Positions 26,305 to 58,412 of a DNA stretch of 64,000 nt are shown in pieces. The notes below the pieces were generated by a model that worked only from the letters and a program-made list of their open reading frames with translations, had not been told where the DNA came from and ran no database searches. The stretch is taken from the NCBI RefSeq assembly GCF_022201045.2, contig NC_068558.1, positions 34,739,501-34,803,500 of the forward strand, in the 5' to 3' direction. The stretch comes from Citrus sinensis (lineage: Eukaryota > Streptophyta > Magnoliopsida > Sapindales > Rutaceae). Within the stretch, counting starts at the first letter, position 1; every line of letters starts with the position of its first letter. The position numbers were made by a program, and so were the translations under genes.

Positions 26305-26896
26305 TCAGCTCTACGTGGAAAATATAGCTACATAAAAGTCAAGTCACTTTCGGCAGTTAAAATTTTAAGTATTTAGAAATTTTATTTATTTGTACAAACT
26401 GCCGCTTCAATTAACTGGTGGACATTTTATTACCCTAATCTTAAAATAGATAGTTCGAATATTTAACTATGATGTTGTTTTTCTTTTTCCAAATATTGAA
26501 AATAAATCCAACGCGTTGCATTATCTCTTGAAATTATATTCGGCGGTTTCGATAGACTTTAAACCTGCTAGAGATTGAAATTTCCTCTTCAGAACACGTT
26601 GTTTATTTGTCAATAGTGCGATGCTCTTTAATTTTTTAACAACACAGTCAAAATGATATATTAAAAATTTGTAAGGAGCCCATAGTTTCAAATTGCATTC
26701 TCTCATATATTCAGATGGGGAAAGCTACATGAAATTTGTAAGGAAAATAATCCAAAGAGAGAAGAAAGAAACGGGAAAGTAATAGGAAATTAATTATAAT
26801 TTATGCGTAATAAAAGCTCAAAGTAGGAAAGTCATATATTTACTTTCACTCAACACTACTCTCTGTTTAATTCAGTCACAAAAATTTCCTTCATAC

Positions 26897-29800
26897 ATGG
26901 CTTCATCATCTTCTTCTTCTTCTTCCGGCCTTACTGCTCAAAGCAAATATGAGGTCTTCCTCAGTTTCAGAGGGGAGGACACTCGTAATGGCTTTACCAG
27001 CCATCTAGCTGCAGCTTTACACCGGAAACAAATACAATTCTTCATTGACGATGAAGAACTTAAGAAAGGTGATGAGATTTCGCCTACCATTTTGAAGGCA
27101 ATCGAAACATCAGATATTTCGATAATTATCTTCTCAAAAGACTATGCTGCTTCCAAATGGTGCCTCAATGAGCTTGTCAAGATTCTTGATTGCAAGAAAA
27201 TAAATGGCCAAATTGTGATACCGGTTTTCTACCAAGTGGATCCATCTAATGTGCGAAAACAGAGTGGGAGTTTCGGAGAAGCTTTTGACGAGTATGAAAA
27301 GAACTTTCCAAATATGGTTCAAAAATGGAGGGACGCATTGACCCAAGCATCAAATATATCTGGATATCATGAGTCCAGGACTTTCAGGTCACTCTTTTTA
27401 ACTCTTCCTATTCCTCGTATAATTTGGCATTTTTTCTTTTAATCAATAAAAGAACATTAATGCTTTATAGCCTGAGCTACGCTTATGTTGGATTAGGATA
27501 TGATCAAATTATGAGAGGATCCTTTCCTGGGCATGTTTGGGATTGCTTTAGTTTCCTAAATAATATTGCCTGAGTTTCCTAAATAATATGCTTTATAAAT
27601 ATTTTGGTAAAATGTTTGGTAATTTTACATTATTAAATAGTCACTTTACAAATAATTTATCATATATATTTGATAAGTTAACCACTACAGCGCATTAGAA
27701 AATATAAATAGAAAGTTAAAATTTTTTAAAAATATTATCAATGCTAATTAAAGAAATAAATATACCATTGTTCCGTAATTCATGTCTTATTATCTCATAA
27801 CAATTTGCCAGGAACGAGGCGGAACTAGTGGAAAACATTGTTGAAGATATTTCCCAGAAATTGGAAGATATGTCAAACTCAACTGATTTAGATAGCTTCG
27901 TCGGATTAAATTCACGAATTGAGGAAATGAAATCACTGCTGTGTCTCGAATCTCACGATGTTCGAATCGTAGGAATTTGGGGCATGGGCGGTGTCGGTAA
28001 AACAACCATTGCTAGTGTTGTTTTCCATCAAATATCAAGAGACTTTCAAGGCAAGTGCTTCGTGGCGGACGTCAGAGAAGAATCAAATAAAATGGGAGTC
28101 ATTCACGTTCGAGATGAGGTTATTTCTCGAGTATTAGGAGAAAATCTCAAAATAGGAACCCCCACTATACCCCAGAATATCCGGAAAAGGCTCCAACGGA
28201 TCAAAGTGTTGATCGTTCTTGATGATGTTCATGATGGATTCGCTCAATTAGAAAATTTAGTTGGAGGGTCTGATAAATTTAGCCCTGGAAGTAGAATCAT
28301 TATAACTACTAGAGATAAACGAGTACTTGATAAATGTGGAGTGGATAACATATTTGAGGTCAAGGGATTGCAACACAGTAAAGCTCTCGAGCTCTTTTGT
28401 AGAAAAGCCTTTAGACAAAACAATCGCTCTCATGATCTTCTTGAGCTCTCACAGGAAGTAGTGTGTTATGCCGATGGCAATCCGTTGGCTCTCGAAGTTT
28501 TGGGTTCTTCCCTTCACCAAAAGAGCAAACAGCAATGGGAAGATAAATTGCACAACTTGAAATTGATTTCAGAACCGAGTATTTATAAGGTGTTGAAAAT
28601 CAGTTATGATGAGCTGAATTCAGAAGAGAAGGAAATATTTCTTGACATCGCATGTTTCTTTAATGGAGAATATATAGACTTCGTGACAAGGATACAAGAC
28701 GATCCTATGTCCATACGTGATCGACTGAACATTCTCATTGACAAGTCACTCATCACAATATCGTCATATGGGAATCGGCTACGGATGCATGATTTATTGC
28801 AAGAGATGGGTCAGATAATCGTTCGCCAAGAATCTGTCAAAGAACCATGCAAACGTAGCAGGCTGTGGGATCACAATGATGTCTATCACGTGCTAAAGAA
28901 AAATAAGGTAAGAATCACTGATTTGACTTTTACTATTAATTTTTCTTCTCCAAAGCGAGAAATTTTAGAATACATAAGAGGTACATACAATAAGTAAATA
29001 ATATTATAACATATGTGTATTTAGTTTGAAAAACTATTATGTAAGTAGTGGTTATATTAAATTCAACTACGCATGGCATGTATGTATCAATTAGTTATAA
29101 TACAGAGATATTCTAAAATTTTTTCTCCAAAACCAAGTTTTAATTTGCCAAAATTATCCTTAGTCGATGTTACTTACAAGGCCCCTAAATTGCTTTTTGC
29201 GCCCATTCACTATAATATCATTTAAAACTTTTGTTGAACAACTTAGGAGCATCGCAAGCAAATTACTTGGTAATAGAAAACACATCTTTCAAAATAAAAA
29301 GCCTAGGTTAGTTTTTAGGCAATTAAACGTAATGAGATTATCATTGCAATCAATGAAATTAGATTAACCAATAGGGAATCCAAAAGCTTGTTAATTAGCA
29401 TGGATTGTACAGTGGTGCATGAATTCGTTTACCTTTCATAATCTCAGCTTTGAGACTAAACTTTTGCATGAACTTTAATTTACTTGCAATAGAATGATAA
29501 TCTTAAATTTATTCTTAAAAATGTGAAAATTTTAACTTATTCTCTAAAATATATTAAATTCAACTACTGATTAATATTGGCTTAGGGTCCGTTTGTGATT
29601 GTTTTTAAAGGCTTAAAAGTGATTTTAAAAATATAAAAGCAAATTTTAGTGCTTGATAAAAAAAAAATCAAAATCACTTTTGTCAAAATCAGCCCCTCTT
29701 ACAACTGATTTTGAAAAGTAGGGAATGAGTAACTTTTAGATTCTGATTTTAAGAATCAATTTTATCCTTTAATACAATTTCATAATTATCCTTAAAATTA

Positions 29801-32800
29801 TTACCTAAACCCAAAATTATCGTTATTCAAATTGAAAATAAAATCATATTTTAATAAAATTTTATTATAATTCATCAATATAAATTTATTAATATCAATT
29901 TGTTGGTTGATTTATTATTAAATTTGTTTCATTATATTATAAATTTAATTGTCAATTGTTTTAAGAAAAAAAATAAAATCAATAGATTATAAATTTTATT
30001 TTTAGTAAAAATTATTATAATATATAATTAAAAATATTATATGTACATGTTTTTATATGTATAAGTAAATTTTATCCGACATTATGTATATTTTAGTCGT
30101 TTGTTTTCTTTCAGCAGTTTAACAATAAAATTTACCAAACGTCCATAACTGCTTTCAAAATTTACAGTACTTTTGAAAAAAAAGTTTACCTAACACTTAA
30201 CTGATTTTCTTCACAATTGATTATTTTTACATCTCAGCTAACAACAATTACTTTTGAAGTTACAACATTCCCAAATTGACCCTTAATAAAATACGATAAT
30301 ATCCTTATTAATAAGAATAGTTAAACTTTTTATTGGTCGCATATGTTCTTTATTCCTATTGTTTCTAAAATAAAATGAATTCAAATCTTTATGTACCTCA
30401 CTTACAAAAGGGTCCAGCTAAGTTGCCTCAGTGGTATGGTATCACTCTTTTTTGTCTTTTTGTGACCTGACGGTTAGATCCAACTAAAGAATTGCAAAAG
30501 TAAAAGTAACGGTATGATGTATTTACTTAGGTAATTAACATTGCAGTCCCTCTAATTTTATAAAATGTCAGAAATAATAATATTATTATTATTTTACCCT
30601 CCCATCCCATCAATGGTTATCCTCATCTCTACTTCTCATGCAACCCGTGATTCATATTTAGACTTTCATGTTTTTTTTTTCTTTGTATCGTAGTTGTTTT
30701 ATTTTATTTCTTTTAGTAAATATTTTTATTTATTGGCTAAGTTATTAAATAATACGAATAAGGAAGATATAGGGAATTTTGAGAGCATTTTTTATTATTG
30801 ATATTGGGTGATTATAATGTATGATTTAGTTGCGCATCCATGAGAGCCACAACCTCTTAAATACAACAAAGCCTATGAACTTTAGAAAGATAAATCCCTT
30901 AATTTATTCCACAAGTACATCAATATTTTATAATTCTCTAATTATTACTATTATTTCCATGTCTACTTCTATAATTAATTATCCATAATATTGAGAAAGT
31001 ATATCACATTAAAATTGAGTATAAAAATGATTAGGAGATATTATTATCTTGTTTTTCGTGTAAATTAGATAAGGTTTTATAAAAATTTTGACAATATCAA
31101 AATGAAAAATAAATAAATATTAAATAAATGCTTGGATAGTTGTTTAAATTTCATTATGGAGTTTATAAATAATATTTTCAAAATAATAAATTTCTATATG
31201 TAAATCTGAAATTATGTAAAATTATTTATACCTTATTACACGTACAAAGCTGATAAATTATTTATTTAATGTGAAAAAAAATGCATTGTATAATATTTAT
31301 TCTATTACTTAAATTTAAAATTATAAAGAATGAAACTTAAATTTAAAATTGTAAAGAATGAATTAATAGATTATGGGAGAATACCTTTAAAAAAAAGATT
31401 AAAATTAACTAACATTTTAGGGTTTGGGTTTCATCAATTGGATTTGAGATTAGCAACAACTGGATTTCAGATTGGGGTTTGGTGATTTTACTGAATTTTG
31501 TATATTTTATTTTATTTTTTATTAACTATTTGTAAGTAGAAAGAAAATTAATTTAAATTTTTTATATTCCAAATTATATTTTTTTCCCAATAAATGATGA
31601 CGTAGAATGTGAATATCCCTTTAAGAGTTAATTTTATTTTTCTGTGTAAGCATAAAAATGTTAAGGGTGATATGGTATTTTTGTTGGTCAAAAAGAAATT
31701 TATTAAAATATTTAGGTTTATGTTGAAATTTCTTAAAACATTTAGGTGTTATTGAAATTAATCTATATTTTTTTATAGAAGAAATTAATCTATATAAAAT
31801 ATAAAATTTTGACTTTCCATGAGTTAGTTAACTGTAAAAAAAAAAATATATATATAATATTACATTTTTGGCTGCTAAAATTTATGAAACGATAATTATA
31901 TTTTAGAATAAATTAAAGTTTCTATATTTCTAGAGATAAATTAAAAATTGTCATTCTAATTATGGAATAAATTGAAGTTTACCCTAAATTTTTAGATAAA
32001 AATAAAATAAAAATAGCTAAAAACTAAAAAGTAGAAGAGAGGAGGATGATCACCAATGAATTCAAATAACCCAACACTTAGGCTATGTTTAGAAGACCAG
32101 ATTAGACTCAATTAACTTTTAGGATTAGATTCGATTGGCTTATACTAGATTATATAATCTTCTCTCCTATTAGGTATAGAGTTAGAAAAGACTATGTAAA
32201 TTTTAATCTAATGACACTAAAATAACTATTTAAATAATATATTTATTTTAAAAAAAGTTAAATTAAATATTTAATATTATTGTAAATAAATAATTGAATT
32301 CTTTTTTATGTTTGATATCACATACTAGTGAAAATAAATTATTGAATAAAATTTTGATATTATTAGCAAATTTAGATTAAAATAGTTAATCCTATTTAAA
32401 CCCATGTGAAAATGAGGATTAATAATCCCATGAATGTTAGACTAAAATTTAGACTAATTTATTAGTCATGACAGTCAAACATCACTCTGGATTGTATTTT
32501 TTTTTTATCCTTTAAATTAGTCTAATTCCACCTTTTATCCAATGTCCAAACATAGTTGTATGTATGTACGTGTGGGGGCCTTCATTTTTTTTTTTTTCAT
32601 GTTAAAACACTTTTAAACCGTGAGGTTTAATATAGTCAGTTATTAAGCCTATTAAACCACACGACTTTATTGTGTATTGAAAATTAACTCTATTAAGTCG
32701 TACGGCTTAACAACGTGTCTGCATTAAAATAAAATAAGGGCATCCGCATCTAAGAATGATTATATATATATACACACACACACGATTAGGAAGCTCTTAA

Positions 32801-35172
32801 TCAAATTTTCAAAAGTTTTGGTAAATTTTATGCTTACTCACTCTTTGCTTATGTTGTTAGGGGACCGATAAAATTGAAGGCATATTCCTTGATCTGTCCA
32901 AGATAAATGATATTCATCTAAATTCTCAAACCTTTGCAAAAATGTCCAATCTCAGATTGCTTAAATTCTATATGCCCAAGCCTAATGATGTTCAAATTAT
33001 AAGCTCTAAAGTGCATCTTGATCAAGGTTTGGAATATTTTCCTGAGGATATGAGGTATCTTCATTGGCACGGATATCCTTTGAAAACACTACCATTTGAT
33101 GTTGAATTGGAGAACCTTGTTGAGCTCAATTTGCCTTACAGTAAAATTGAGCAAATTTGGGAAGGAAAAAAGGTATGGTGTTCTAGTACCAAAACATTAA
33201 TTACTTTTTTCTTCTTTAAATAATATAAAATTAATTGTGAAATTCAGTGGTACTAATTTAATATAATCTGTTTATTTTTTGTTACAGAAAGCTTTCAAGT
33301 TAAAATCTATTGATCTTGGCCATTCCCAATATCTTACTAGAATGCCAGACCTGTCGGAAACTCCAAATCTTGAGAGAATAAACTTTTTGAATTGTACGAA
33401 CTTAGCTTGTGTTCCCTCATCAATCCAAAATTTCAACCATCTCACTGAGCTGTGTTTTAGGGGCTGCAAAAGTCTTAGGTCATTTCCAAGCAACCTTCAT
33501 TTTGTTTGTCCAATAAGTATTGATTTCTCCTCCTGTGTTAATCTCACAGAGTTCCCACAGATTTCTGGGAATATAAAGACGCTATACTTATTCGAGACGG
33601 CAATAGAAGAAGTTCCCTCATCAATAGAATGCCTAACTAATCTTACACTCTTAACTATAAGTAGATGCACAAGGCTGAAAAGGGTTTCAACTAGCATCTG
33701 TAAATTGAAATCTCTGATTTGGCTTTCTGTTCACGGGTGCTTAAACCTCGAGAGTTTCCCAGAAAGCTTGGAGAAGATGGAACATTTAAATCAAATCAAT
33801 TTAGGCAGGGCTAAAATTACAGAGCAGCGACCATCTTCATTTGAAAATGTAGAAGGGCTTGGAACGCAGGGCTTAGAGGGCTGTTCTGAACCAGATAATA
33901 TTGGCAATTTAAAATTTCATGAGTACGTGGGTGCACATGGATCTGCCACTAGTCAACTACCACCCTTATTATCAGGTTTGGGGTCACTGCCTGCATCGTT
34001 GTTATCCGGTTTATCTTCATTGAATTGGTTAGATTTAGATAACTGTGGTTTAACGGCTATTCCGCAAGAGATTGGCTGTCTATCGTCATTGGAATGGTTG
34101 CATCTAAGTGGAAATAACTTTGAGAGTTTACCGGCAAGTATCAAGCAACTTTCACGGCTGAGAGAACTTTTCTTGAGCGATTGCAATATGCTTCAGTCAT
34201 TACCAGAGCTCCCACCAAGTTTGGAATTATTAGATGCAAGTAATTGCCAGCGACTACAATCTTTGCCAGAGATTCCATCATGTCTAGAAGAACTAGATGC
34301 ATCCCTACTTGAAAAGCTATCCAAACACTCCCGTAATGAAGTTGAATTTCACTTTTCGAGGCATCAAATCACTTCGTCCAGTGAGTTCTGGCTTATTAAT
34401 TGCTCGAAACTGGCTGAAGAAGCAAACAGGAATTTGGCAGATTCACAACTAAGGATTCAGCATATGGCAATTGCATCACTGAGACGACTTTATGAATTGG
34501 AAATGGTATATATATGTAATTCTCTCTCTTCTCTCCGATCCTCTCTCCCTCTTCATTACATCCGAAATCATAATTTTTTTACAGGAACGCGGTAGACTCG
34601 GGGGTCCCAGCATAATTTTACCAGGGAGCGAGATTCCAGAGTGGTTCAGCAATCAAAGTTCAGGATCTTTATTAACTCTTCAAATGCCGCAACATTGTCG
34701 TCAAACTTTAGTTGGGTTTGCTTTCTGTGCTGTTCTCGTGTCATGTGATTCAGAACGGAGTGGGTTTGACGTCGACTTTCGATACAGCTTTGAAACGAAG
34801 ACTCTCGGTAGAAGGAAACGTGGTCGTCGCTGTTGCTTTGAGGAAGGATGGGTTGGTGGTTATCAGGTGACTAAAACGGATCATGTCGTGCTTGGGTTTA
34901 GTCCCTGCGGGAAAGTTGGGTTTCCTGATGATAACCACCACACAACTGTCTCCTTTGAGTTCCTCTCGAGAGTGGACAAGGTGAAATGTTATGGGGTGTG
35001 TCCGGTATATGCAAATCCCAACGAGACCAAACCCAACACTTTTACCCTCAATTTTGCTACCCAAGTTTGGAAATTGGATGATATGGCGAGCGCAAGTGGA
35101 ACTTCTGATGAAGAGGAATTGGAACCGAGTCCCAAGAGAATTTGCAGAGACGACGAAGTCAACACTCCCTAA
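26897..35172 (+). CDS. TIR-NBS-LRR (TNL) intracellular immune receptor
   Basis: Five exons (26897-27387, 27812-28907, 32861-33172, 33288-34505, 34585-35172), all in phase, encode about 1234 aa. TIR domain at residues 18-160: YEVFLSFRGEDTR, then SKWCLNEL with the catalytic-type Glu92. NB-ARC: P-loop GMGGVGKTT (221-229, Lys227), kinase-2 VLIVLDDVHD, RNBS-B GSRIIITTRDK, GLPL-type GNPLALEVLGSSL and MHD in LRMHDLLQEMG (about 488-490). LRRs run from about 560 to 1000 (LVELNLPYSKIEQIWEG onward). The last exon carries the C-JID/post-LRR domain (IILPGSEIPEWFSNQSSG). A short acidic-then-basic C-terminus has PSPKRICRD. TNLs sense pathogen effectors and signal by TIR NADase activity through EDS1. No stop or frameshift was seen, so it looks functional. 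The Ser-rich start after the ATG is typical. Confidence 0.95.
29581..30286. mobile_element. Tourist/PIF-Harbinger-like MITE in TNL intron 2
   Basis: Begins agggtccgtttgtgattg and ends ccaaattgaccctt, the inverted form of the start, with TTA on both flanks (a 3-bp target duplication, as for PIF/Harbinger elements). The interior has matching inverted blocks (aaaagtgattttaa near the left, aattacttttgaag near the right) and no coding potential. Confidence 0.6.
32089..32559. mobile_element. MITE with ctatgttt termini in TNL intron 2
   Basis: Left end ctatgtttagaagaccagattagactcaatt and right end aattagtctaattcc...ccaaacatag form imperfect terminal inverted repeats (CTATGTTTRGA; ATTAGACTNAATT). 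The AT-rich core has no open frame. Exact target duplication is unclear. Confidence 0.55.
32601..32735. repeat. Palindromic-box repeat, copy B
   Basis: Three boxes of the form ttaaacc...ggtttaa: ttttaaaccgtgaggtttaa, attaaaccacacgacttta and the near-palindrome ttaagtcgtacggcttaa (32693-32710), followed by gcattaaaataaaataaggg. Order and spacing match copy C at 42032. It lies just upstream of the LRR exon acceptor in TNL intron 2. Confidence 0.55.
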
Positions 35173-37629: not shown

Positions 37630-40600
37630 ATGGCTTCAACGCCATCTTCTTCTTGCAAATATGATGTCTTCCTCAGTTTCAGAGGGGAGGATACTCGTTG
37701 TAATTTAACTAGTCATCTCTACGCTGCTTTTTGTCAGAAGAAGATCAAAACATTTATTGATGATGAAGAGATTAGCAGGGGAGAAAAGATTTCACCTGCC
37801 ATTTCGAAGGCAATGTAATACCCCACACCCGCGTTTTTGACTCTCCACCTAGATATATATATAAAGAGAGAGAGAACGAAAGTGAGAAGAGACGAGAGAA
37901 AGAGAGGAAAAGAGTTGACCCGAGTTTGACCCGGATCCGACCCGGAACCCGCAGCTTTGACCCGGTGATTTCTCCCATTTCCGGCCACCGTTCCGGGCAA
38001 GCTTGGTACCGATTCGAAGTTGGAGAGACGAGCTACCTATCCATGTCGTCCTTGCCGCCGGAAATCGATCGGAAAGCCACCGATCGAAGCTTTGAAGTTC
38101 CGCGGAGTCGCCGGCGCGATTTGCCGTGATTTCGCCGGTTTCCGGTGAAGCCATCACTTGGGTTTTGTTCCTTACCTTGCCCTCTGCCATTTCCGACTAA
38201 CCCCTGACGCCGGGGACGTCGTTTTGCGGTTGATCGGCCGTTGGACAATTCACGACTTCGGGAGCTCGATTTGCCGTCGTTACCGCGCGTGGTAGGTCAC
38301 CACCGCCACCATTGGACTCAGCGTGGCTTGAACTTTCAGTTCTGAGCTTCCCGTCGCCGTCGGATGAATTCCGGTGACGTTGACCGGCAAGGGTATTTTG
38401 GTAATTTCAGAGTCTAAGGGCAATTTTGTAATTTCAGATTTTGTGGGTATTTTAGTAATTGCTGTAATTGAGGATAAAGTTGGTAATTTATGATTTTGAG
38501 GTTAATTTGGTAATTTTAATATGAGGGTATTTTGGTAATATTGAATTCAAGGGCATTTTGGTAATTTTGATATTTGGGGGGTAATTTCGTAATTTCAAGA
38601 ATTGTGAGTATTTTGATTATTTATGATTTAAATTAAGATTATTTGAGGTTAAGTATGGAATGCGATTATATTGAGGAATTTGAGAATATTGGAGTTTATG
38701 GTTATGATTTAATTTTATTCTTATGAGAGTATTTTTATTTATTTATAAGCCGATGATATCGATGTGGATTTGTTACTCGAGGATTGGTTTACCAGGAGGT
38801 AAGTAAACTAGATTTCCAAACGAATCACAATAAACAATATATATGTGTTGACATGTTTGAAAAGTCTATTTTGATATATGTACGGATATTGATTTATATG
38901 TCTTGCCCATGTGTTTATACGATATGTTGATATGATATGTTGTTATGTGTGTTTATGGACATGGGCATACGTATGTGTGGATATTTCATTGGCATGAGCA
39001 CGAAAATGTATTATGTTTTCTGTAAAATGAGAAAGTTGATTTTAGCAAGCGGAATTTGAAGAAAGAAAGATTGTTTTACAGTTTTAGCTTGGATGCTTGA
39101 ATTCGTTACTGGCTTAGTGGAGGATACTCTAGATATAGTTATGAGATAAGTGGGCGAATGACGCATTGGCGAGAAGCCCAAAGAGTATGAAAGTTAAGAG
39201 AGTGTCCTGCTAAGCGGTAATCGAATGAAGGTAGCTCAAGTAAGTGGTTTGAAAGAGAAAGTGAAAGTTTGAGAAAGACAGAATGAGATTTCGATGATTT
39301 ATTTTACGATGTTTTCAAATATTACGGCACGTCATTCATGTGCACTGTATATATGTATGTATGTATTTTGGTATATGCAAAACTGGTTTACTTATTAAGT
39401 TTCGTACTCATTATAATTTATTGTGATTCAGTTTTCATAAATCAGGATTGATTCGTGATGAGTGTCAAGAAGGACTTGAATGGAGGAATTAGATGGTTTG
39501 ACATGAATTTATTCTTCCGCTGCAGTTGTATTTTTTAAGGATATGATTTTTAATGGCTTGTAAAGGATTATTTATTATTATTTTATTTTTTAAGCATTTA
39601 TCAGTAAGATTCGCTCTGTAGAGGTCGGGGCGGGTCGTTACAGGCAATCCAAGGCTCAAAGGTTTCGATAATCATTTTCTCGAAGGACTATGCTTCTTCA
39701 GATTGGTGCCTGAATGAACTTGTCAAGATTCTTGACTGCAAGAAAATAAATGGTCAAATTGTTATTCCAATTTTCTATCACGTAGATCCATCGGATGTAC
39801 GGAAGCAAAATGGAAGTTTTGGGGATCCGTTTGTTGAGCATGAAAAACAGTTCAAGAACATGCCAGAAAAGATTCAGAAATGGAGGGCTGCGTTGACCGA
39901 AGCATCCAATCTGTCTGGATGGGATTCCATGACAATCAGGTATCTGTTAACCATTCGTGTATTCTGTTAAAGAAAAATTTGTATGCGTCTCGTTGTTCTG
40001 TTTCCGTCAGTATAATTTAAATTTAACTAATTTCTGTCCATCTTCGCACCTGCTAGGTCTGAGGCACAACTCGTAAACAAAATTGTGGGAGATGTTTTGA
40101 AGAAATTGAAATCATCAGCAAAAAAGAACCAACACCCCTTTAATCAATTTTCTGCATTCATTCAGGTTATATTGTCTTATAGGTTTTTATTGTATAGTTC
40201 TTTTCTCCAATCCGTTCAGTCTTGTAAGTCAAGAAATTGGGATGAGAAGAGCAAACAAGCTTCCTTCAATAAGAAGGAACATGATGATGAGAGTCTCTCT
40301 AGAGATGAAGTGGAAATGGTCATGCGAAAGTTGACACTTTTTTGCAGCTTTGAAGATGAGGAGCTTCCACAGAAGCTGGGTTCTGCTGAGCTTTCGTGGT
40401 TGTTTGAGGAGAAAGAGCCAAGCTTGGAGGAGGTGAAAGAAGCTTTTGATGTGTTTGATGAGAACAAAGATGGCTTCATTGATGCCATGGAGTTGCAGAG
40501 ATTGCTCTGTATTTTGGGCTTGAAAGAGGGATTTGAGCTGGAGAATTGCAAGAAAATGATCAAAACTTTTGATAAAAATGGAGATGGAAGGATAGATTTT

Positions 40601-40645
40601 AAGGAATTTGTAAAGTTTATGGAGAAGAGCTTTGTTGAATCATAA
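37630..40645 (+). pseudogene. TIR-calmodulin-like (EF-hand) fusion gene split by a solo LTR
   Basis: TIR exon 37630-37813 plus 39648-39939, interrupted by an LTR at 37814-39642. The TIR part has KYDVFLSFRGEDTR and SDWCLNEL with the catalytic-type Glu (residue 85 if the LTR is ignored) and YHVDPSDVRKQNGSFG. Donor 39939/GTATCT and acceptor TGCTAG/40057 are in the normal TNL intron-1 position. Exon 2 starts with the usual NB-ARC linker (SEAQLVNKIVGDVLKKL), but from about 40130 the same frame continues into a calmodulin-like protein to TAA at 40643-40645. This has EF-hand loops DENKDGFIDAME and DKNGDGRIDFKE, both with all Ca2+ ligands, and resembles CML45/46. Without the LTR it would encode about 354 aa. 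As it stands, TAA at 37817-37819, just inside the LTR, ends the TIR frame after 62 codons. There is no NB-ARC or LRR. Confidence 0.85.
37814..39642 (+). mobile_element. Solo LTR (1829 bp) inserted in the TIR exon
   Basis: Begins TGTAATACCCC and ends GGGTCGTTACA (TG...CA with a short inverted terminus), and is flanked by a perfect 5-bp target duplication ggcaa (37809-37813 and 39643-39647). No internal gag-pol sequence, primer site or second LTR is present, so it is a solo LTR left by recombination. A TATA-like atatatatataaag at about 37855 is followed by a GC-rich region (37900-38360). At 38390-38640 the motif ggtattttggtaatttc recurs many times. It probably belongs to a Ty3/Gypsy family with TGTAAYRCCC ends. 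Confidence 0.85.
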
Positions 40646-40769
40646 CTCATTTCTGAAAAATAAATAAAAGTACAGAACTTGATATAATATTTTCAACATA
40701 TTCTTTTTTTTTCCCTCTGTTGTTGTGATATGAATATCTATGTAATTTTCTTTTGCATCTTTCTCAAAT

Positions 40770-41010
40770 CCACATTAAATCTTCATCAGTAGTCTGCACA
40801 ACATCTCATTTGACTGGTGTAGAACTCATAAACTTCTCAGCCTCATCAAGCAGACCGGCCTTCAAATACTTGCAGTAGACCCAAGTGGCCACTAGCAGGG
40901 AGAACCCCAACAAAAGTTACCTGGTTAGAACATTCGTCTCTGCAACATACCTGTCCCGAAACATAGTCTGAGCGTCCATACATATGATTAATAAATTATC
41001 ATTATTGTGT
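40770..41010 (-). pseudogene. PPR protein relic (EMB2744/At5g39680-like)
   Basis: Minus-strand frames give NQVTFVGVLPASGHLGLLQ and, after a frame change, KAGLLDEAEKFMSSTPVK followed by a stop where Trp is expected, then DVV. These match the end of a PLS-class PPR protein in the same order, with the intervening motif deleted; an upstream piece reads DAQTMFRDRYVAETNVLT. From memory this is closest to EMB2744 (At5g39680), whose Arabidopsis neighbour At5g39670 encodes a CML45/46-type EF-hand protein. It is non-functional. Confidence 0.6.
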
Positions 41011-41229
41011 ACGTGATGTGAATTCCTACAGACTGTACGAAATTGTTGGATAGTCTTAATTGTTGGGATTCGGGCCATGGGGATATAAGCAAAACGACCT
41101 TGCCACAACTATTTTCATCAATTTTGCTGAATGTTGAAATATTTGACTTGAATATGGGAAAACATTTATGACAAACCGGACAAGTTAGTAATTGCATGGT
41201 AAAAGTGTGAAGATCAAATGGTAAACTTG

Positions 41230-44077: not shown

Positions 44078-44085
44078 TATATAAA
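44078..44085 (+). promoter_or_regulatory. TATA box of the ankyrin/PGG gene
   Basis: TATATAAA lies 57-64 bases before the ATG at 44142, leaving a short leader of around 30 bases. This supports 44142 as the start over any further upstream in-frame codon. Confidence 0.5.
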
Positions 44086-44141
44086 GTGGCAAATTGTCTG
44101 TCCACAACGTAGGAAGCCATTTCTTAACTTATTTCCAAAAG

Positions 44142-45955
44142 ATGAGAGACGCTAATGAGGCTCTTAGATTAGCGTCTCTTAGATCAGCACTGATCAATTA
44201 CAATGTCAGTCCATTCCTCCTTTCTGAGATTGAAAACCAAGACATGTCAGAAACTTTCAAAACAATAACTAGCCCTTCTGAGAATACGTTGCTGCACATA
44301 GCAGCTGCGGGCTCTATTCACGATCATGAAAATATGGCGACAACATTGGCGAGAAAGTATCCCTTCTTGATCACCATGCAAAACTCCAAACGCGATACTC
44401 CGCTTCACGTTGCTGCTAGAGCTGGGATGTTACAAACGGCGAAAATCCTCGTCGATTGTGCGAAAAGGTCTGGAATGACATCATCATCTCAAATAGATGT
44501 CAAAGGTCTGATGGAGATGAAAAACGTTAGGGGAAACACAGCTCTGCACGAGGCGCTTAATGCTTTGCTGGATGCCAAGAAAGACAAAAATAAACAGAAG
44601 GAAGAAAGAGTAACCTTGCTGGTATCTCTTGCTCGATCCCTAGTGTCGGAAGATCCAAATGCGTCCTACTTAAAGAACGTTGACTGTAAATCTCCTCTGT
44701 ATCTGGCGGTTGAGTCTAAAAACGAGGATATCCTGAAATACATCCTGGAAGCTCTACCAGTGAATGACGATTGCGCCACTAAGTTAGAGGGAAAATCCCC
44801 TGTGAAGGTTGCCATTGAGCTACAAAAACTAGGTAAGTAGTATTTTCCAGCAGGCAATATATGCATGCATGCATCTTTTATTTGAATTCCTAGAATATTC
44901 ATAAAAAATAATTATAGTTTATTGAAAATTCTCGTGTGGGGATAGCTTCATTTTATTTAGAAAGATGAGAAAGAACGCTGAATGCCGACAGAGCACTGTC
45001 AGAACTATTGATACATCTAACCTGAGTTACCGTGTAAATTGATTATTTTTCAGTCAACACAATAGCGTTGGCCAGATGTCCTGTTATTTTTGTTAGCACT
45101 CTGTGAAATTTTTCTGTTTAGTTATCATTGCGCTTTTAATTATATTTTTTTGTTTGAAGTATGATTTTACGTATATATTACAATTTGGGATCTATGGACT
45201 CAATGATCTACTGAGAATGGCTAAGAAATCTGTCTCAATTAGAGATGCTGCATTCTATTAGTTCTTAATTTGTATGTGTAAATAAAACTTTTAATTTTGT
45301 TTCCTTCAATTCAGGTTTGTTGAAAATGATGCACGATAAGCAACCAGCTCTATTACTTATACAAGATGAACAAATGAATACTCCGATGCATTGGGCAGCA
45401 TCCGTAGATCATCTTGAAGGGGTTCGTTTCCTCTACGAAATCAATCCTGATAGTGTCCTTCAACGGAATGAGGAGGGCTTTTATCCTTTCCATCTTGCAA
45501 GTGCAAATGGCCGTGTCCGAGTAATGGGCGAGTTTTTTGAAAAAGAGAACATGCCTCCCCCAACAGAATTGCTCAATACGAAAGGGCAGAATATTCTTCA
45601 TGTGGCGGCCAAGAAGGGGAAATCTGATACCGTGAGGCGCATACTCAAAGCAAGCAATATCGATACGCTAATTAACGAGATGGATGACGATGGAAATACA
45701 CCATTGCATTTGGCAGCTTTGTACGGTCGTCATTTGGCAGCGGCCATTCTCGTATGGGATGGACGAGCAAATCAAGACATTATCAACTTTCATGGCCAAA
45801 CGGCCTACAGTATTGCCAAGCAAAAATCTGCTGAGATAAATCCAGAGTTCTTTGGAAACGACGACGATGTAAATTGTGTTCCTTTCTTCTTCTTCCTTCT
45901 TTTTTTTTTTTTTGAAAATTTACTTTTTTAAAAAAAAATTTACTTACAGACATGC

Positions 45956-45993
<38 letters not shown>

Positions 45994-46566
45994 ATTTCAT
46001 GTTGATTTTCTCAGAAGGACCATAAACAGAAGAAATCCAAATCAAAACCAGATATCTATAATACTATATAAATAACCTAACCTCTGCGTATACATTTCTG
46101 CTTCTTCCTTTTTTTTTTTTTTTTTCAGCAAATACTGATTGTTTTATTCATATTGCTCTTGCAGGCTGACCAGCTCAGAGTTGACAATTATAAAACAACT
46201 GACAAGAATATGAAGGATTCGGGTTCAAAACCAAATGCATATAATATGGTATGAAATTCCTAGACGGCTACATACAGGATAAATGTCGCTAGCTAACTTT
46301 TCTTAATAAATATATATATTTTTAATTCTAAGTATTAACTTTTTAAAATATTATCTTATTACCTTTTTAAAATGCAACTTTTACATTTGACGATTTTTTA
46401 AAATTCCAGAATGGTTATTAAACAAAATTAATTATTCTATATCTATGTCGTTTGTTATATGAGGATTTGTTTGAATATTCAAGTTAAATAAAATAAATAT
46501 ACTATTTTGGATAATCTTGGAAGTAAAATTAACCCAAACTTTATGGTCTAAAGAAGAATTACCTGT

Positions 46567-46616
<50 letters not shown>

Positions 46617-47560
46617 CATATGTATCTTCAAGTCTAAAATTAAAATTTGGTATTCAAATTTGGGAAATGTTTACAATGTTTCACTATTTTACAATATTAT
46701 AAAAGTCAGTTTATGAGGTTGTAAAAAAAATTACTAAATGTATATACATAAATATTATCGGGTATGCGACTACGCACATGGTGACCTCTTGCATATATAG
46801 TTGAGGTTTTCAATTTAAATAACAAAAAAAAAAAAATAGTTATTGTATTTCTCCTTGATCCATGCAGATGATGACGTTAACGGTCTTATTTCAACATCAA
46901 CTTTCTCGTTCGGGTCCCACGTCCTTTCAAAGTCTTTTGAAGTTTACTGGAAATACAAGCAATCAAAGGTCCGTTAAAAAAAATGATGTTAACAACAGAA
47001 TAAACACCTTCATTGTCGTGGCAGCACTTGTTGCCGGTGCTTCCTTTGCTTCTTCAGTCCAAATGGGTAGCAGTAGCTTCAGTGACAGCGAACGGTCTAC
47101 TACTAGTACAAGTATCTTGCGTAGCAAGGTTTTGACTCTAAAATATTTCACAGCTTTCAATACTATAGCTATGTACACATCCATCACGGCTGCACTCGCA
47201 CTGTGTTTGGCGCTAACAGTTGATCCGGTTCTAGCATCTATAAACATTTGGTTTGCATCTCTATTGATAGTGATAGCACTTTATGCGTCATGCGTTGCCT
47301 TTTCCGACAGCACATACATGTTAAAAGATAGGGGCCAAGGATTTATTGTTGCCATGACGGTGGTTCAGTGCTTTCTTTTGATTCCACTGGCGCAGCTTGC
47401 AACTCATTTGCTTGTCCCCTTTAGACTGAAGAAACCTTTGATTTTGTACAACTACCGGATTCACTTGTGGTTTTGGTACTTTCTCGACTGGATCTGGAGT
47501 TCACCGAAAAGAACCCCTTGTTGTGCTCGCTGCCTCCATGGCAAGCCGCCAAAAGAGTAG
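44142..47560 (+). CDS. Ankyrin-repeat membrane protein, ACD6/PGG family
   Basis: Four exons (44142-44832, 45315-45868, 46165-46248, 46868-47560), all in phase, give about 673 aa, close to the length of Arabidopsis ACD6. The N-terminal two thirds holds ankyrin repeats (NTLLHIAAAGS, DTPLHVAARAGM, GNTALHEALNALL, KSPLYLAVESKNEDILKYIL, NTPMHWAASVDHLEGVRFL, QNILHVAAKKGK, GNTPLHLAALYGR). A short acidic/lysine linker exon follows, then a C-terminal domain with four probable membrane helices (FIVVAALVAGASFASS, then three more), in the position of the PGG domain, though the PGG tripeptide itself is not present. The tail is basic with CCARC. ACD6-type proteins sit in ER/plasma membranes and modulate salicylate-dependent defence and cell death; its neighbours are TNL genes. 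The ATG at 44142 was chosen because a TATA box lies just upstream. Confidence 0.9.
46016..46070 (+). pseudogene. Decayed duplicate of ankyrin-gene exon 3
   Basis: In intron 2, after an acceptor-like tttctcag, the frame reads KDHKQKKSKSKPDIYNT before a stop. The end mirrors exon 3 (DSGSKPNAYNM, 46165-46248) in sequence and phase, but the donor found after exon 3 (atg/gtatg) is lost here (actatata). Confidence 0.5.
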
Positions 47561-48998: not shown

Positions 48999-49040
48999 GT
49001 GGGAGCCAATCTTAGCAAAGTTAGTCCGTGGTGAAAAGTG

Positions 49041-50968
49041 ATGGTGGCAAAATATGAAATTGAGAAGTTCAATAAAAATAATTTCTCGTTGTGGAAAATG
49101 AAGATGAAGGTTGTATTGAGAAAAAATAATTGCTTGGCAGCAATTGGAGAAAGGCTCGTGGAGATGACTGATAACGTCAAGTGGAACGAGATGGATGACG
49201 ATGCAATTGCTGATTTACACTTGGCACTTGCAGACGAGGTGTTATCCAGTGTGGCAAAGAAAAAGACAGCAAAGGAAATATGGGATACTCTCACAAAATT
49301 GTATGAGGCCAAGTCACTGCACAACAAGGTCTTCTTAAAGAGAAGACTCTACACTTTTCGAATGGCGGAATCAATATCAGTAACCGACCACATCAATACC
49401 TTGAAGACTCTATTTTCACAACTCACAACGTTGGGTCATAAAATTAAAGGAAAATGAACGTGTAGAGCTTTTACTTCAGAGTCTACTAGATTCGTATGAT
49501 CAACTCATCATTAATCTGACGAACAACAACCAAGCAGAAAATTTAGTTTTTTATGATGTTGCAGCTTCCGAATTGGATGAGGAAAGCAAGCAAAAAAATA
49601 AGGAAGACAAACAAGCAAGTTCGCAACAAGCAGAAGTGCTGTTGGTGACGAGAAGGAGATCAACGGAACGTGGCCCTAGTGGGAGCCACAATCATAGTAG
49701 ATCAAAATCAAGAAGCAAGAGAATATTAAATGCTATAATTATGGTAAGAAAGGGCACGGTAAGAAAGAGTGTTGAAACAACCAGAAGAAAAGAGAGGGTA
49801 GAGATCCAGAGTCATCAAATGCTCAAGGGTGTGTAGCAAGTATCTTGGATGATGACGAAATTCTCTACAGCGAGACAACAACTATTTCAGAAGGCAGAAA
49901 ACAACTATATGACGTCTGACTTACAGACTCAAGAGCTACCTGGCATATGACTTTTCGGAGAGAATGGTTCCACACATATAAACCTATCCAAGAGGATCTG
50001 TATACATGGGTAATGATCATGCCTTGGAGATTTGTATATATTTGTAGGATCTGTATACACTACAGGAAACTGATGCGTGCGGCGCATCAAATGGAGAAGA
50101 GTCAGCTATGATATGGCTTCTCAAGCTTGGCCACATGTGGGAATAAGGTTTGAAGATTCGCTCTGAATAAAAGTTGCTTCTATGGCTCAAATCGGTTAAC
50201 TTATCGTTTTGTGAGCATTGTGTTATAACTAAGCAATATAGACTAAAGTTTAGTAGATCTGTTGTTAGAAGTAAACGCATTCTGGACTTAGTTCATTTTG
50301 ACATTTGGGAATCACCAGACACATCCATGGGAGGTTAAAAATAAATGGTGATTTTCATTAATAATTATTCTAGGAGACATTAGGTGTATCCAATTAAGAA
50401 AAATTCAGATGAGTTTCCAGTATTCAAATAGTACAAAGCACGGGTAGAACTTGAATCTGGGAAAATGATCAAGTGCTTGAGGACAGATAATGATGGAGAC
50501 TATACAGGCTGCGAGTTTCTTGCTTTCTATAAGTAAGAAAGTATTTAAAAACAATTCACTGTGGCATACACTCCCCAACAGAATGGAGTGACAGAGTGGA
50601 TGAACATAACTGTTATAAAAAGAATAAGAGATATGTTAAGGACTGCGGGTCTACCCAATTTATTCTGGGCAGAAGCAGCCAAAACTGCTAGTTATATAGT
50701 AAATCGATCACCATTAACAATAATTGAGTTAAAGACACCGATGGAGATGTGGATTGGAAAGCCAACTGATTACTCCCATCTACATGCATTTGGATATCTT
50801 GTGTACGTGATGTACAATGCCCAAGAAAGATCAAAGCTAAATCCAAAATCTAGGAGGTGTATCTTTATGGGATATGCTAATGGAGTAAAAGGATATTTTC
50901 TGTGGGATTTCACTACTCACAAGATTGTTATAAGCAAAAATGTTATTTTTATAGAAGATCAACTATAA
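49041..50968 (+). mobile_element. Ty1/Copia gag-protease-integrase region (decayed)
   Basis: Gag starts at 49041 (MVAKYEIEKFNKNNFSLWKM) and runs to about 49457, then continues in another frame (RVELLLQSLLDSYDQLI). A zinc knuckle is damaged (CYNYGKKGHGKKEC, the second Cys replaced by Tyr). The protease motif reads TDSRATWHM where DSG/DSA is expected. Integrase pieces include CLRTDNDGDYTG, TPQQNGVTEWMN and FWAEAAKTASYIVNRSP, with several stops and frameshifts between them. Order gag-PR-IN before RT identifies Copia; style resembles Tork/TNT1 types. Not functional. The element is interrupted at 50986 by the Gypsy insertion and resumes at 63184. Confidence 0.88.
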
Positions 50969-57508: not shown

Positions 57509-58412
57509 TTATTCATCAGGAAAAGTTTCAGTGATGTCCTTTCTTGTTAATGTGCTTGTGTCTGCTTCCAGCCTCGACAGGTGGTCTGCTACTTGATTTT
57601 CAGTCCCCTTTCTATCTTTAATTTTCAGATCAAACTCTTGAAGTAATAAGATCCATCTTATTAATCTTGGTTTAACATCCTTCGTTGAGATTAAATACTT
57701 GATGGCTGCATGGTCTGTGTACACTGTCACTTTAGTGCCCACCAAATAAGCTCTGAATTTATTAAAAGTAAATACTACTACTAGCAACTCTTTTTCTGTG
57801 GTGGTGTAATTAATTTGAGTTTGAGTAAGAGTTTTGCTGGCATAGTATATGGAATGAAAAATCTTGTCCTTCCTCTGCCCTAATACTGCTCCAATGGAAT
57901 GGTCACTGGCATCACACATCAGTTCAAATGGTAAAGTCCAATCTGGTGATATAATCACTGGTGTAGTGATCAAAGCTCTCTTTAACTCTCCAAAGGCTTG
58001 AAGACAGTCTTTATCAAAATGAAAAGGCTTGTCATGTTCCAGCAATGAGCATAATGGTTTAGCTAACTTGGAAAAATCTTTAATGAATCTTCTATAAAAT
58101 CCGGCATGCCCCAAAAAACTCTTAATTCCCTTGATTGAAGTGGGAGGTGGTAGTTTATCTATCACTTCTATCTACTTCAATACCATTCTTGGACACCTTA
58201 TGACCCAGCACTATGCCTTCTTGCACCATGAAATGGCATTTTTTCCAGTTGAGTACTAAATTGGTCATCTTACATCTTTTAAGAACTTTTTCTAAGTTGT
58301 GTAAACAATCAGCATATGTCTCTCCAAAAATTGAGAAATCATCCATGAATACTTCCAATGTTTGCTCCACCATATTAGAAAAAATAGACATCACACATCT
58401 CTTCTGCCTCAT
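57509..58412 (-). mobile_element. Reverse transcriptase C-terminal half and RNase H of the Gypsy element
   Basis: The frame enters RT abruptly at RCVMSIFSNMVEQTLEVFMDD, with the catalytic MDD intact, then LNWKKCHFMVQEGIVLGHKV, the thumb ([20 protein letters not shown]) and RNase H ([40 protein letters not shown]). The fingers of RT, normally before this, are missing. One frame break is seen near 58160. Confidence 0.88.

Follow-up and report, generated by a model that had tools for sequence, protein, structure and literature searches.

The TIR-X and TIR-only proteins, of which RBA1 and TX14 are examples, form one of the described systems with which the locus analysed here can be compared. According to passages of PMC10972746, the AE-interface mutants of RPP1-TIR, RBA1 and TX14 lose condensation and have impaired NADase activity, and the Glu mutant of RBA1 alone gives no cell death. 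The second system comprises the NLR and TNL-like proteins that carry EF-hands. In the rows of Table 1 of PMC10934728, two TNL-like genes of soybean, GLYMA_16G214500 and GLYMA_16G214800, are entered with EF-hand_7 as an integrated domain, excerpts of PMC4759884 report EF_hand_5 for NLRs from apple, poplar and Triticum urartu, and further NLR or TNL-like proteins with EF-hands are catalogued for adzuki bean and, with shifted rows in the text form, in a table on Haynaldia. The third system is that of the calmodulin-like proteins CML46 and CML47 of Arabidopsis, which lower the accumulation of salicylic acid (PMC5877526), are ChIP targets of SARD1 (PMC4703862) and are tied to SARD1/CBP60g (PMC3511238, PMC4703862).

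Here we analyse a stretch of 64,000 nucleotides of Citrus sinensis, C3:34739501-34803500 (called the window below; contig C3 has 52,308,633 bases and the genome 299.7 Mb), in which a TIR exon of the TNL type is followed by a CML45/46-like part with two EF-hands. An earlier reading of the sequence alone had pointed to this fusion and had stated that no described plant TIR-EF-hand receptor was known. The statement has to be narrowed, because EF-hands are catalogued in the soybean TNL-like proteins and in the apple, poplar and T. urartu NLRs. The terms TIR-CML, TIR-EF-hand and TIR-calmodulin have no occurrence in the literature among the matches listed. Literature searches found by title no paper on such a TIR-CML fusion, nor did they find literature on the three gene-model names of the fusion, and a term count in the main text of a survey of 2,348 plant TIRs (PMC9806590) returned no 'EF-hand'. 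The fusion is a variant within the TIR-X or integrated-domain kind, as EF-hands in NLR and TNL-like proteins are already known.

Results

The TIR exon begins with the ATG at 37630 and is present in two parts, 37630..37813 (+; PF01582, 2e-16) and 39643..39939 (+; PF01582, 7.6e-35), with the Pfam TIR matches extending over 37630-37812 (60.8 bits) and 39644-39937 (120.7 bits) against a cut-off of 21.3, so that the claim that exon 1 encodes the TIR domain of a TNL holds for both parts. The first part contains GEDTR and the SH pair in the first helix, and the second part contains, at 39716-39718, the catalytic-type Glu of WCLNEL. In P0007, a protein record of C. x clementina, the Glu (WCL.EL) aligns with the RUN1 position occupied by Ala in 7s2z, which we take to be a catalytic mutant, and the same residue is present in the window. 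Judged by these motifs, the window TIR belongs to the plant TNL type, with putative NADase and cell-death activity.

The two parts of the exon are separated by a solo LTR at 37814..39642 (1,829 bp, no strand assigned), which starts with TG, ends with CA and is flanked on both sides by GGCAA target-site duplications, the left copy being the last 5 bases of 37630..37813 and the right copy occupying 39643-39647. Its borders are fixed by eight other places on C5-C9 that match bases 1-1829 with both ends, and no internal region is present at the site. The proposal that a solo LTR cuts the TIR exon is therefore confirmed for the window allele; in the P0007 protein record the TIR is uninterrupted. 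It is noted that an ATG and a donor site inside the LTR (38364-38400) constitute the first exon of a public C. sinensis gene model, P0001, which is identical letter for letter to window positions 38364-38400, 39786-39939 and 40183-40645, with GT-AG borders. The LTR may thus have given the locus a new start.

TIR exons are abundant on C3 at about 22.9-38.2 Mb, with most of them near this locus, at 34.3-35.2 Mb; of 118 candidates 40 TIR places were scored, 37 on C3 including the window and 3 on C2. The window also contains a TNL at 26786-35172 (+), with TIR, NB-ARC with a Roq1-like winged helix, and LRR, the post-LRR part being recognised by eye and about 3.9 kb separating the NB-ARC and LRR reading frames. 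This TNL, at 26.8 kb, was considered as the donor of the TIR exon and rejected, because other TIR copies on C3 are closer (85% vs 75%). Downstream, 44085-47560 (+) encodes ankyrin repeats (44085-44837) and a PGG domain (46859-47557) and is presumably a gene of the ACD6-like kind. Two retroelement coding pieces follow, one at 49035-50968, with a retroviral SH3-like match at 50549-50965 (+) and a gag-like piece recognised by eye at 49035-49836, the second half being without a Pfam match, and the other at 57509-58171, with a match to reverse-transcriptase RNase H at 57512-58171 (-).

The TIR exon is followed by a predicted intron 1 at 39940..40056 (+; 117 bp, GT...AG), where GTATCT follows position 39939 and CTAG precedes position 40057. 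The intron lies at the TNL intron-1 site, that is, at the position of intron 1 in the TNLs on the same contig. Exon 2 (40057-40645, +) is open throughout, up to the TAA stop at 40643-40645, and begins with a TNL linker at 40057..40111 (+; R/SEAQLVNKIVGDVLKKL) from upstream of the P-loop position. The linker consists of 17 TNL codons, in the same frame as the CML part and inside one exon with it. As had been claimed, the predicted splice leads in frame and with no stop to the CML part, and P0007 has the same junction. At the level of the sequence, the in-frame TIR-linker-CML frame at the TNL intron-1 site is confirmed, with the TIR-to-CML joining at 39939/40057 being a predicted splice. Public models use the alternative acceptors 40183 (P0001) and 40220 (P0004-type; open in the window too). 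Since P0007 shares the junction and the TNL and CML46 homologies meet within 3 bp, a chance juxtaposition is excluded. With the predicted splice, the locus has a TIR followed by a non-NLR tail and no NB-ARC, as in TIR-X proteins. It is not a TNL with NB-ARC and LRR in frame, because the linker alone precedes the CML part and the P-loop remainder is degenerate, and it is not an NLR with an integrated domain, because no in-frame NB-ARC stands alongside the extra domain.

The CML45/46-like coding part (40109..40645, +) ends with TAA and has CML45/46 as its nearest relatives. It has no start codon or N-terminus of its own, the first 13 codons of the parent being absent and the TNL linker standing in their place; the possibility that it is a stand-alone gene with the old N-terminus was rejected, as the Met and the first 13 codons of the gene on C6 are missing. 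The two canonical EF-hands that had been read from the sequence were borne out both by Pfam (EF-hand_7, 4.6e-15, for the pair in exon 2) and by reading of the loops. Loop 1 (40457..40492, +; DENKDGFIDAME) and loop 2 (40571..40606, +; DKNGDGRIDFKE) keep every ligand position (D1, N3, D5, D9 and E12) as well as the Gly and the Ile.

Bases 4-55 of exon 2 match five places on C3 (85-87%), of which L034 and L035 are TNL exons by reading frame, while bases 53-611 match CML46 on C6 (80%), the parent-like gene, located at C6:25582817-25583449. The TNL homology stops at 40111 against all three TNL loci compared (L034, L035 and L036) and restarts at 41043 (41058 in L036), and the restart point in L034 and L035 lies 87 bp past the breakpoint, at the P-loop. 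At the breakpoint the two homologies have 3 bp, AAA, in common (40109..40111, +). The similarity to C6 extends over five collinear blocks, 40109-40667, 40691-40748, 40763-40796, 40798-40862 and 40869-40981. Past the coding part, the remaining chromosome-6 piece (40646..40981, +) contains the CML46 3' flank and an antisense PPR fragment and is shorter than on C6, the last two blocks falling within a PPR/DYW gene on the opposite strand, beside CML46 on C6. Then comes the degenerate remainder of the NB-ARC exon (41043..41123, +), with the P-loop and an in-frame stop (LIVGIRAMGI*AKRP) and with DNA identities of 84%, 79% and 77% to the three TNLs; downstream NB-ARC remains are seen as DNA matches alone, with no tblastn match at 1e-2.

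Based on the breakpoints and the collinear blocks, a piece that is about 2.1 kb long on C6 and shorter here separates the linker from the P-loop within the NB-ARC exon of a TNL, and we infer that it moved from C6 rather than from a third copy. A retrocopy origin of the CML part was considered and rejected, because the 3' flank and the PPR fragment came along. Downstream of the NB-ARC remainder, 41360-41820 matches repeats dispersed on most contigs, so that the TNL tail probably also received a mobile element.

Comparison of the CML part with the C6 gene over 178 codons gives dS of 0.29, dN of 0.099 and dN/dS of 0.34 (bootstrap 0.20-0.58), with 0.41 in the N-part and 0.21 (0.05-0.84) in the EF part, where it is noted that the constraint on the C6 gene itself lowers the pairwise dN/dS. 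The gaps inside the coding part are of 11, 1 and 7 whole codons. Parsimony with outgroups assigns the 35 amino-acid differences to the fusion branch (19) and the other branch (14), with 2 unclear. By neutral simulation at half of dS, where the equal split of dS between the branches is an assumption, 54 changes in 197 codons are expected (by manual scaling, about 49 for 178), with a stop in 93% of the runs; a branch of 0.10 still yields 40 changes in 197 codons, and 87% of the runs then acquire a stop. Four of the fusion-branch changes fall in the EF part, none of the four at a Ca2+ ligand of the window protein. These sequence comparisons show that the CML part evolved slowly, with past constraint on the CML branch. 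For the TIR, dN/dS ranges from 0.15 to 0.47 over 13 of 23 TNL comparisons, with 0.17 for the DNA-closest L036, and these values include the time spent as a TNL; L010-L012, L015, L016, L018, L019, L023, L027 and L028 have no value, the places of L010 being covered by L036. Between the window and P0007, 8 of 283 compared residues differ, a sequence difference which hints that the constraint is relaxed now.

In a protein search with the exon-2 part, 477 of 678 candidates passed, and the best 120 of the 477 were examined. A TIR Pfam domain together with the CML part occurs in four records among the matches listed, P0001, P0004, P0007 and P0036, all of them from Citrus, and in none of the other CML45/46-type matches (best 120 of 477; 19 of 19 in a length-limited search). 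Since similarity to TIR and CML is what brought the four records up, they do not form an independent sample. In a search of about 265-843 aa with the CML45/46 part (19 of 119 candidates), TIR and EF-hand are both present in P0004 alone, and a search with the P0007 junction region (8 of 55 candidates) gave records already in the exon-2 search. In its own genome the fusion is found once, and the next best match of exon 2 is CML46 on C6, which is without the linker.

P0007 (C. x clementina CICLE_v10021500mg, 287 aa) carries an uninterrupted TIR, shares splice and linker with the window, continues into the N-part of the CML and ends with EEVRR ahead of the EF-hands; for a window exon accounting for this end, no match was found after 40400. 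A stop between linker and CML part, which was looked for in the relatives, is not present in P0007. P0004 and P0036, from C. x changshan-huyou, have the EF-hand pair and skip parts of the TIR or of the middle and exon 2, and P0036 has Tyr at position 9 of EF loop 2. Splice choices vary among the four TIR-CML records. The expectation that an intact form exists elsewhere is borne out in respect of the LTR, which is absent in P0007, P0004 and P0036, each reading through the insertion site; it is not borne out in respect of the whole protein, as among the records examined no single one has the complete TIR and both EF-hands.

One further record, P0002, on a contig of 1,061 bases, starts with MDDVLKKLKSSANKN, which is the TNL linker, where stand-alone relatives have ITMEKSS. 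It has the DVLKKLK linker in common with the fusion, as well as the 11- and 7-codon gaps and not the 1-codon gap, and has Ala at position 12 of its EF loop 2. Phylogenetically, P0002 groups with the fusion rows in a single clade next to the stand-alone P0003, P0005 and P0006, with moderate support (83/79, 85/81). Based on the common linker, the common gaps and the tree grouping, the fusion likely predates the split of the window lineage from the P0002 lineage. Note also that, given the Tyr in P0036 and the Ala in P0002, EF loop 2 is not kept everywhere.

Discussion

We propose that C6-type CML45/46 DNA in the NB-ARC exon of a TNL gave rise to a TIR-linker-CML gene, the product of which was likely for a long time one protein, and that the gene is now split by the LTR. 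We regard this proposal, taken as a whole, as somewhat favoured. The DNA itself shows the breakpoints, the reading frame, the GT-AG borders, both EF-hand loops, the conserved Glu and the LTR, and from the slow protein change and the records in other citrus we infer that a joined protein was produced and retained. Probably the gene either served for a long time and was lost recently from cultivated citrus, or still has intact alleles that annotation hides. Since the TIR half is split in the window, any function likely survives in the related citrus versions alone.

Signalling by TIRs acts through EDS1 and helper NLRs and results in an influx of Ca2+. Taking this together with the kept SH pair and Glu, the TIR-X proteins and the CML46/47 literature, a Ca2+-tuned TIR can be put forward, as follows. 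The TIR would self-associate and cleave NAD+ as other plant TIR-X proteins do. The Ca2+ that enters after EDS1 and helper-NLR signalling would then bind the EF-hands on the same chain, and the Ca2+-bound EF-hands would change the assembly or the partners of the TIR, giving a Ca2+-tuned output. From the window allele, a half-TIR-CML alone could still be made, as in model P0001, from the ATG in the LTR. That citrus and its relatives have in this way a TIR NADase with its own EF-hands reading the TIR-triggered Ca2+ influx, with some haplotypes having lost the enzyme half to a retroelement, is a speculative and, in our judgement, unlikely scenario. If the built-in Ca2+ switch is true, a feedback loop would be closed within one polypeptide, and if the protein works, one chain would couple the NAD-derived signal and Ca2+, the steps with which TIR signalling starts and ends. 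Independently of the switch, the locus offers a traceable case in which a plant TIR gains a partner domain via a DNA piece in the NB-ARC exon, in frame and slow-changing afterwards, and points to a crop immune gene that carries an LTR in some versions and lacks it in others.

The explanation that competes best is that of a decaying gene, where the fusion was once coding and has since become, in cultivated Citrus, a pseudogene that yields no notable protein. Besides the LTR within the TIR, it would account for the clementina model without EF-hands, the huyou models that skip parts, the loss of one EF ligand each in P0036 and P0002, and the 8 of 283 residues that differ between the window and clementina. 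However, four records retain long open frames, three of the four with the EF-hand pair (one ligand being changed in P0036), and the CML branch carries past constraint, although a past function is compatible with decay. We consider decay a serious possibility, a little short of an even one.

The main functional rival to the Ca2+-tuned TIR is that the CML part is an integrated bait, a decoy for effectors that target salicylic-acid regulators of the CML45/46 type, with its disturbance freeing the TIR. This would be in line with the presence of an extra domain in a TNL-derived gene, with the tie of the CML46/47 clade to salicylic-acid control in the literature cited above, and with excerpts of PMC4759884, where EF-hand domains are among the NLR-integrated domains and also occur in one effector-group target. 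By contrast, no effector is known to bind the CML part, and the NB-ARC and LRR, which are the usual parts holding a TNL off, are absent, so that a bait appears rather doubtful.

It is also conceivable that in this haplotype the LTR provides both start and promoter for a half-TIR that lacks the catalytic-type Glu and is fused to the CML, and that this product could serve simply as a Ca2+ sensor or could restrain other TIRs. P0001 agrees with the window letter for letter, with GT-AG borders, but is a gene model only, and we hold such a half protein to be quite improbable. Finally, that a TIR relic and a CML relic are mere neighbours, joined by annotation software and never one protein, as the differing splice choices of the four records and the frequent bridging of neighbouring genes by gene finders might suggest, is very improbable, because linker and CML part are in one frame and one exon with a 3-bp breakpoint, where bridging is unneeded, and because the gaps are whole-codon and the linker is common to P0002.

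We now compare the fusion, as proposed here, with the known systems. With the TNLs L034, L035 and L036 on C3 it has in common the TIR exon, intron 1 and the first 17 codons of exon 2, whereas its NB-ARC is broken before the P-loop, with the degenerate remainder at 41043-41123. With CML45/46/47 it has in common the 80% DNA identity to CML46 on C6, the same EF-hand pair and a mildly hydrophobic stretch before that pair (19-residue mean of 1.31 against 1.50), and it differs from them by the lack of the first 13 codons, by the gaps of 11, 1 and 7 codons and by the TIR and linker in front. The soybean, apple, poplar and T. urartu NLR or TNL-like proteins, known from table rows, likewise have an EF-hand in a TIR- or NLR-derived protein; in citrus, by contrast, the CML replaces the NB-ARC and LRR, where the soybean pair is compared by its table rows. 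As in the TIR-X and TIR-only proteins RBA1 and TX14, a TNL-type TIR with SH pair, GEDTR and Glu is present without NB-ARC and LRR and with a non-NLR tail, while the citrus tail, unlike theirs, is a CML45/46 part of the chromosome-6 type with two full EF-hands, gained at the DNA level.
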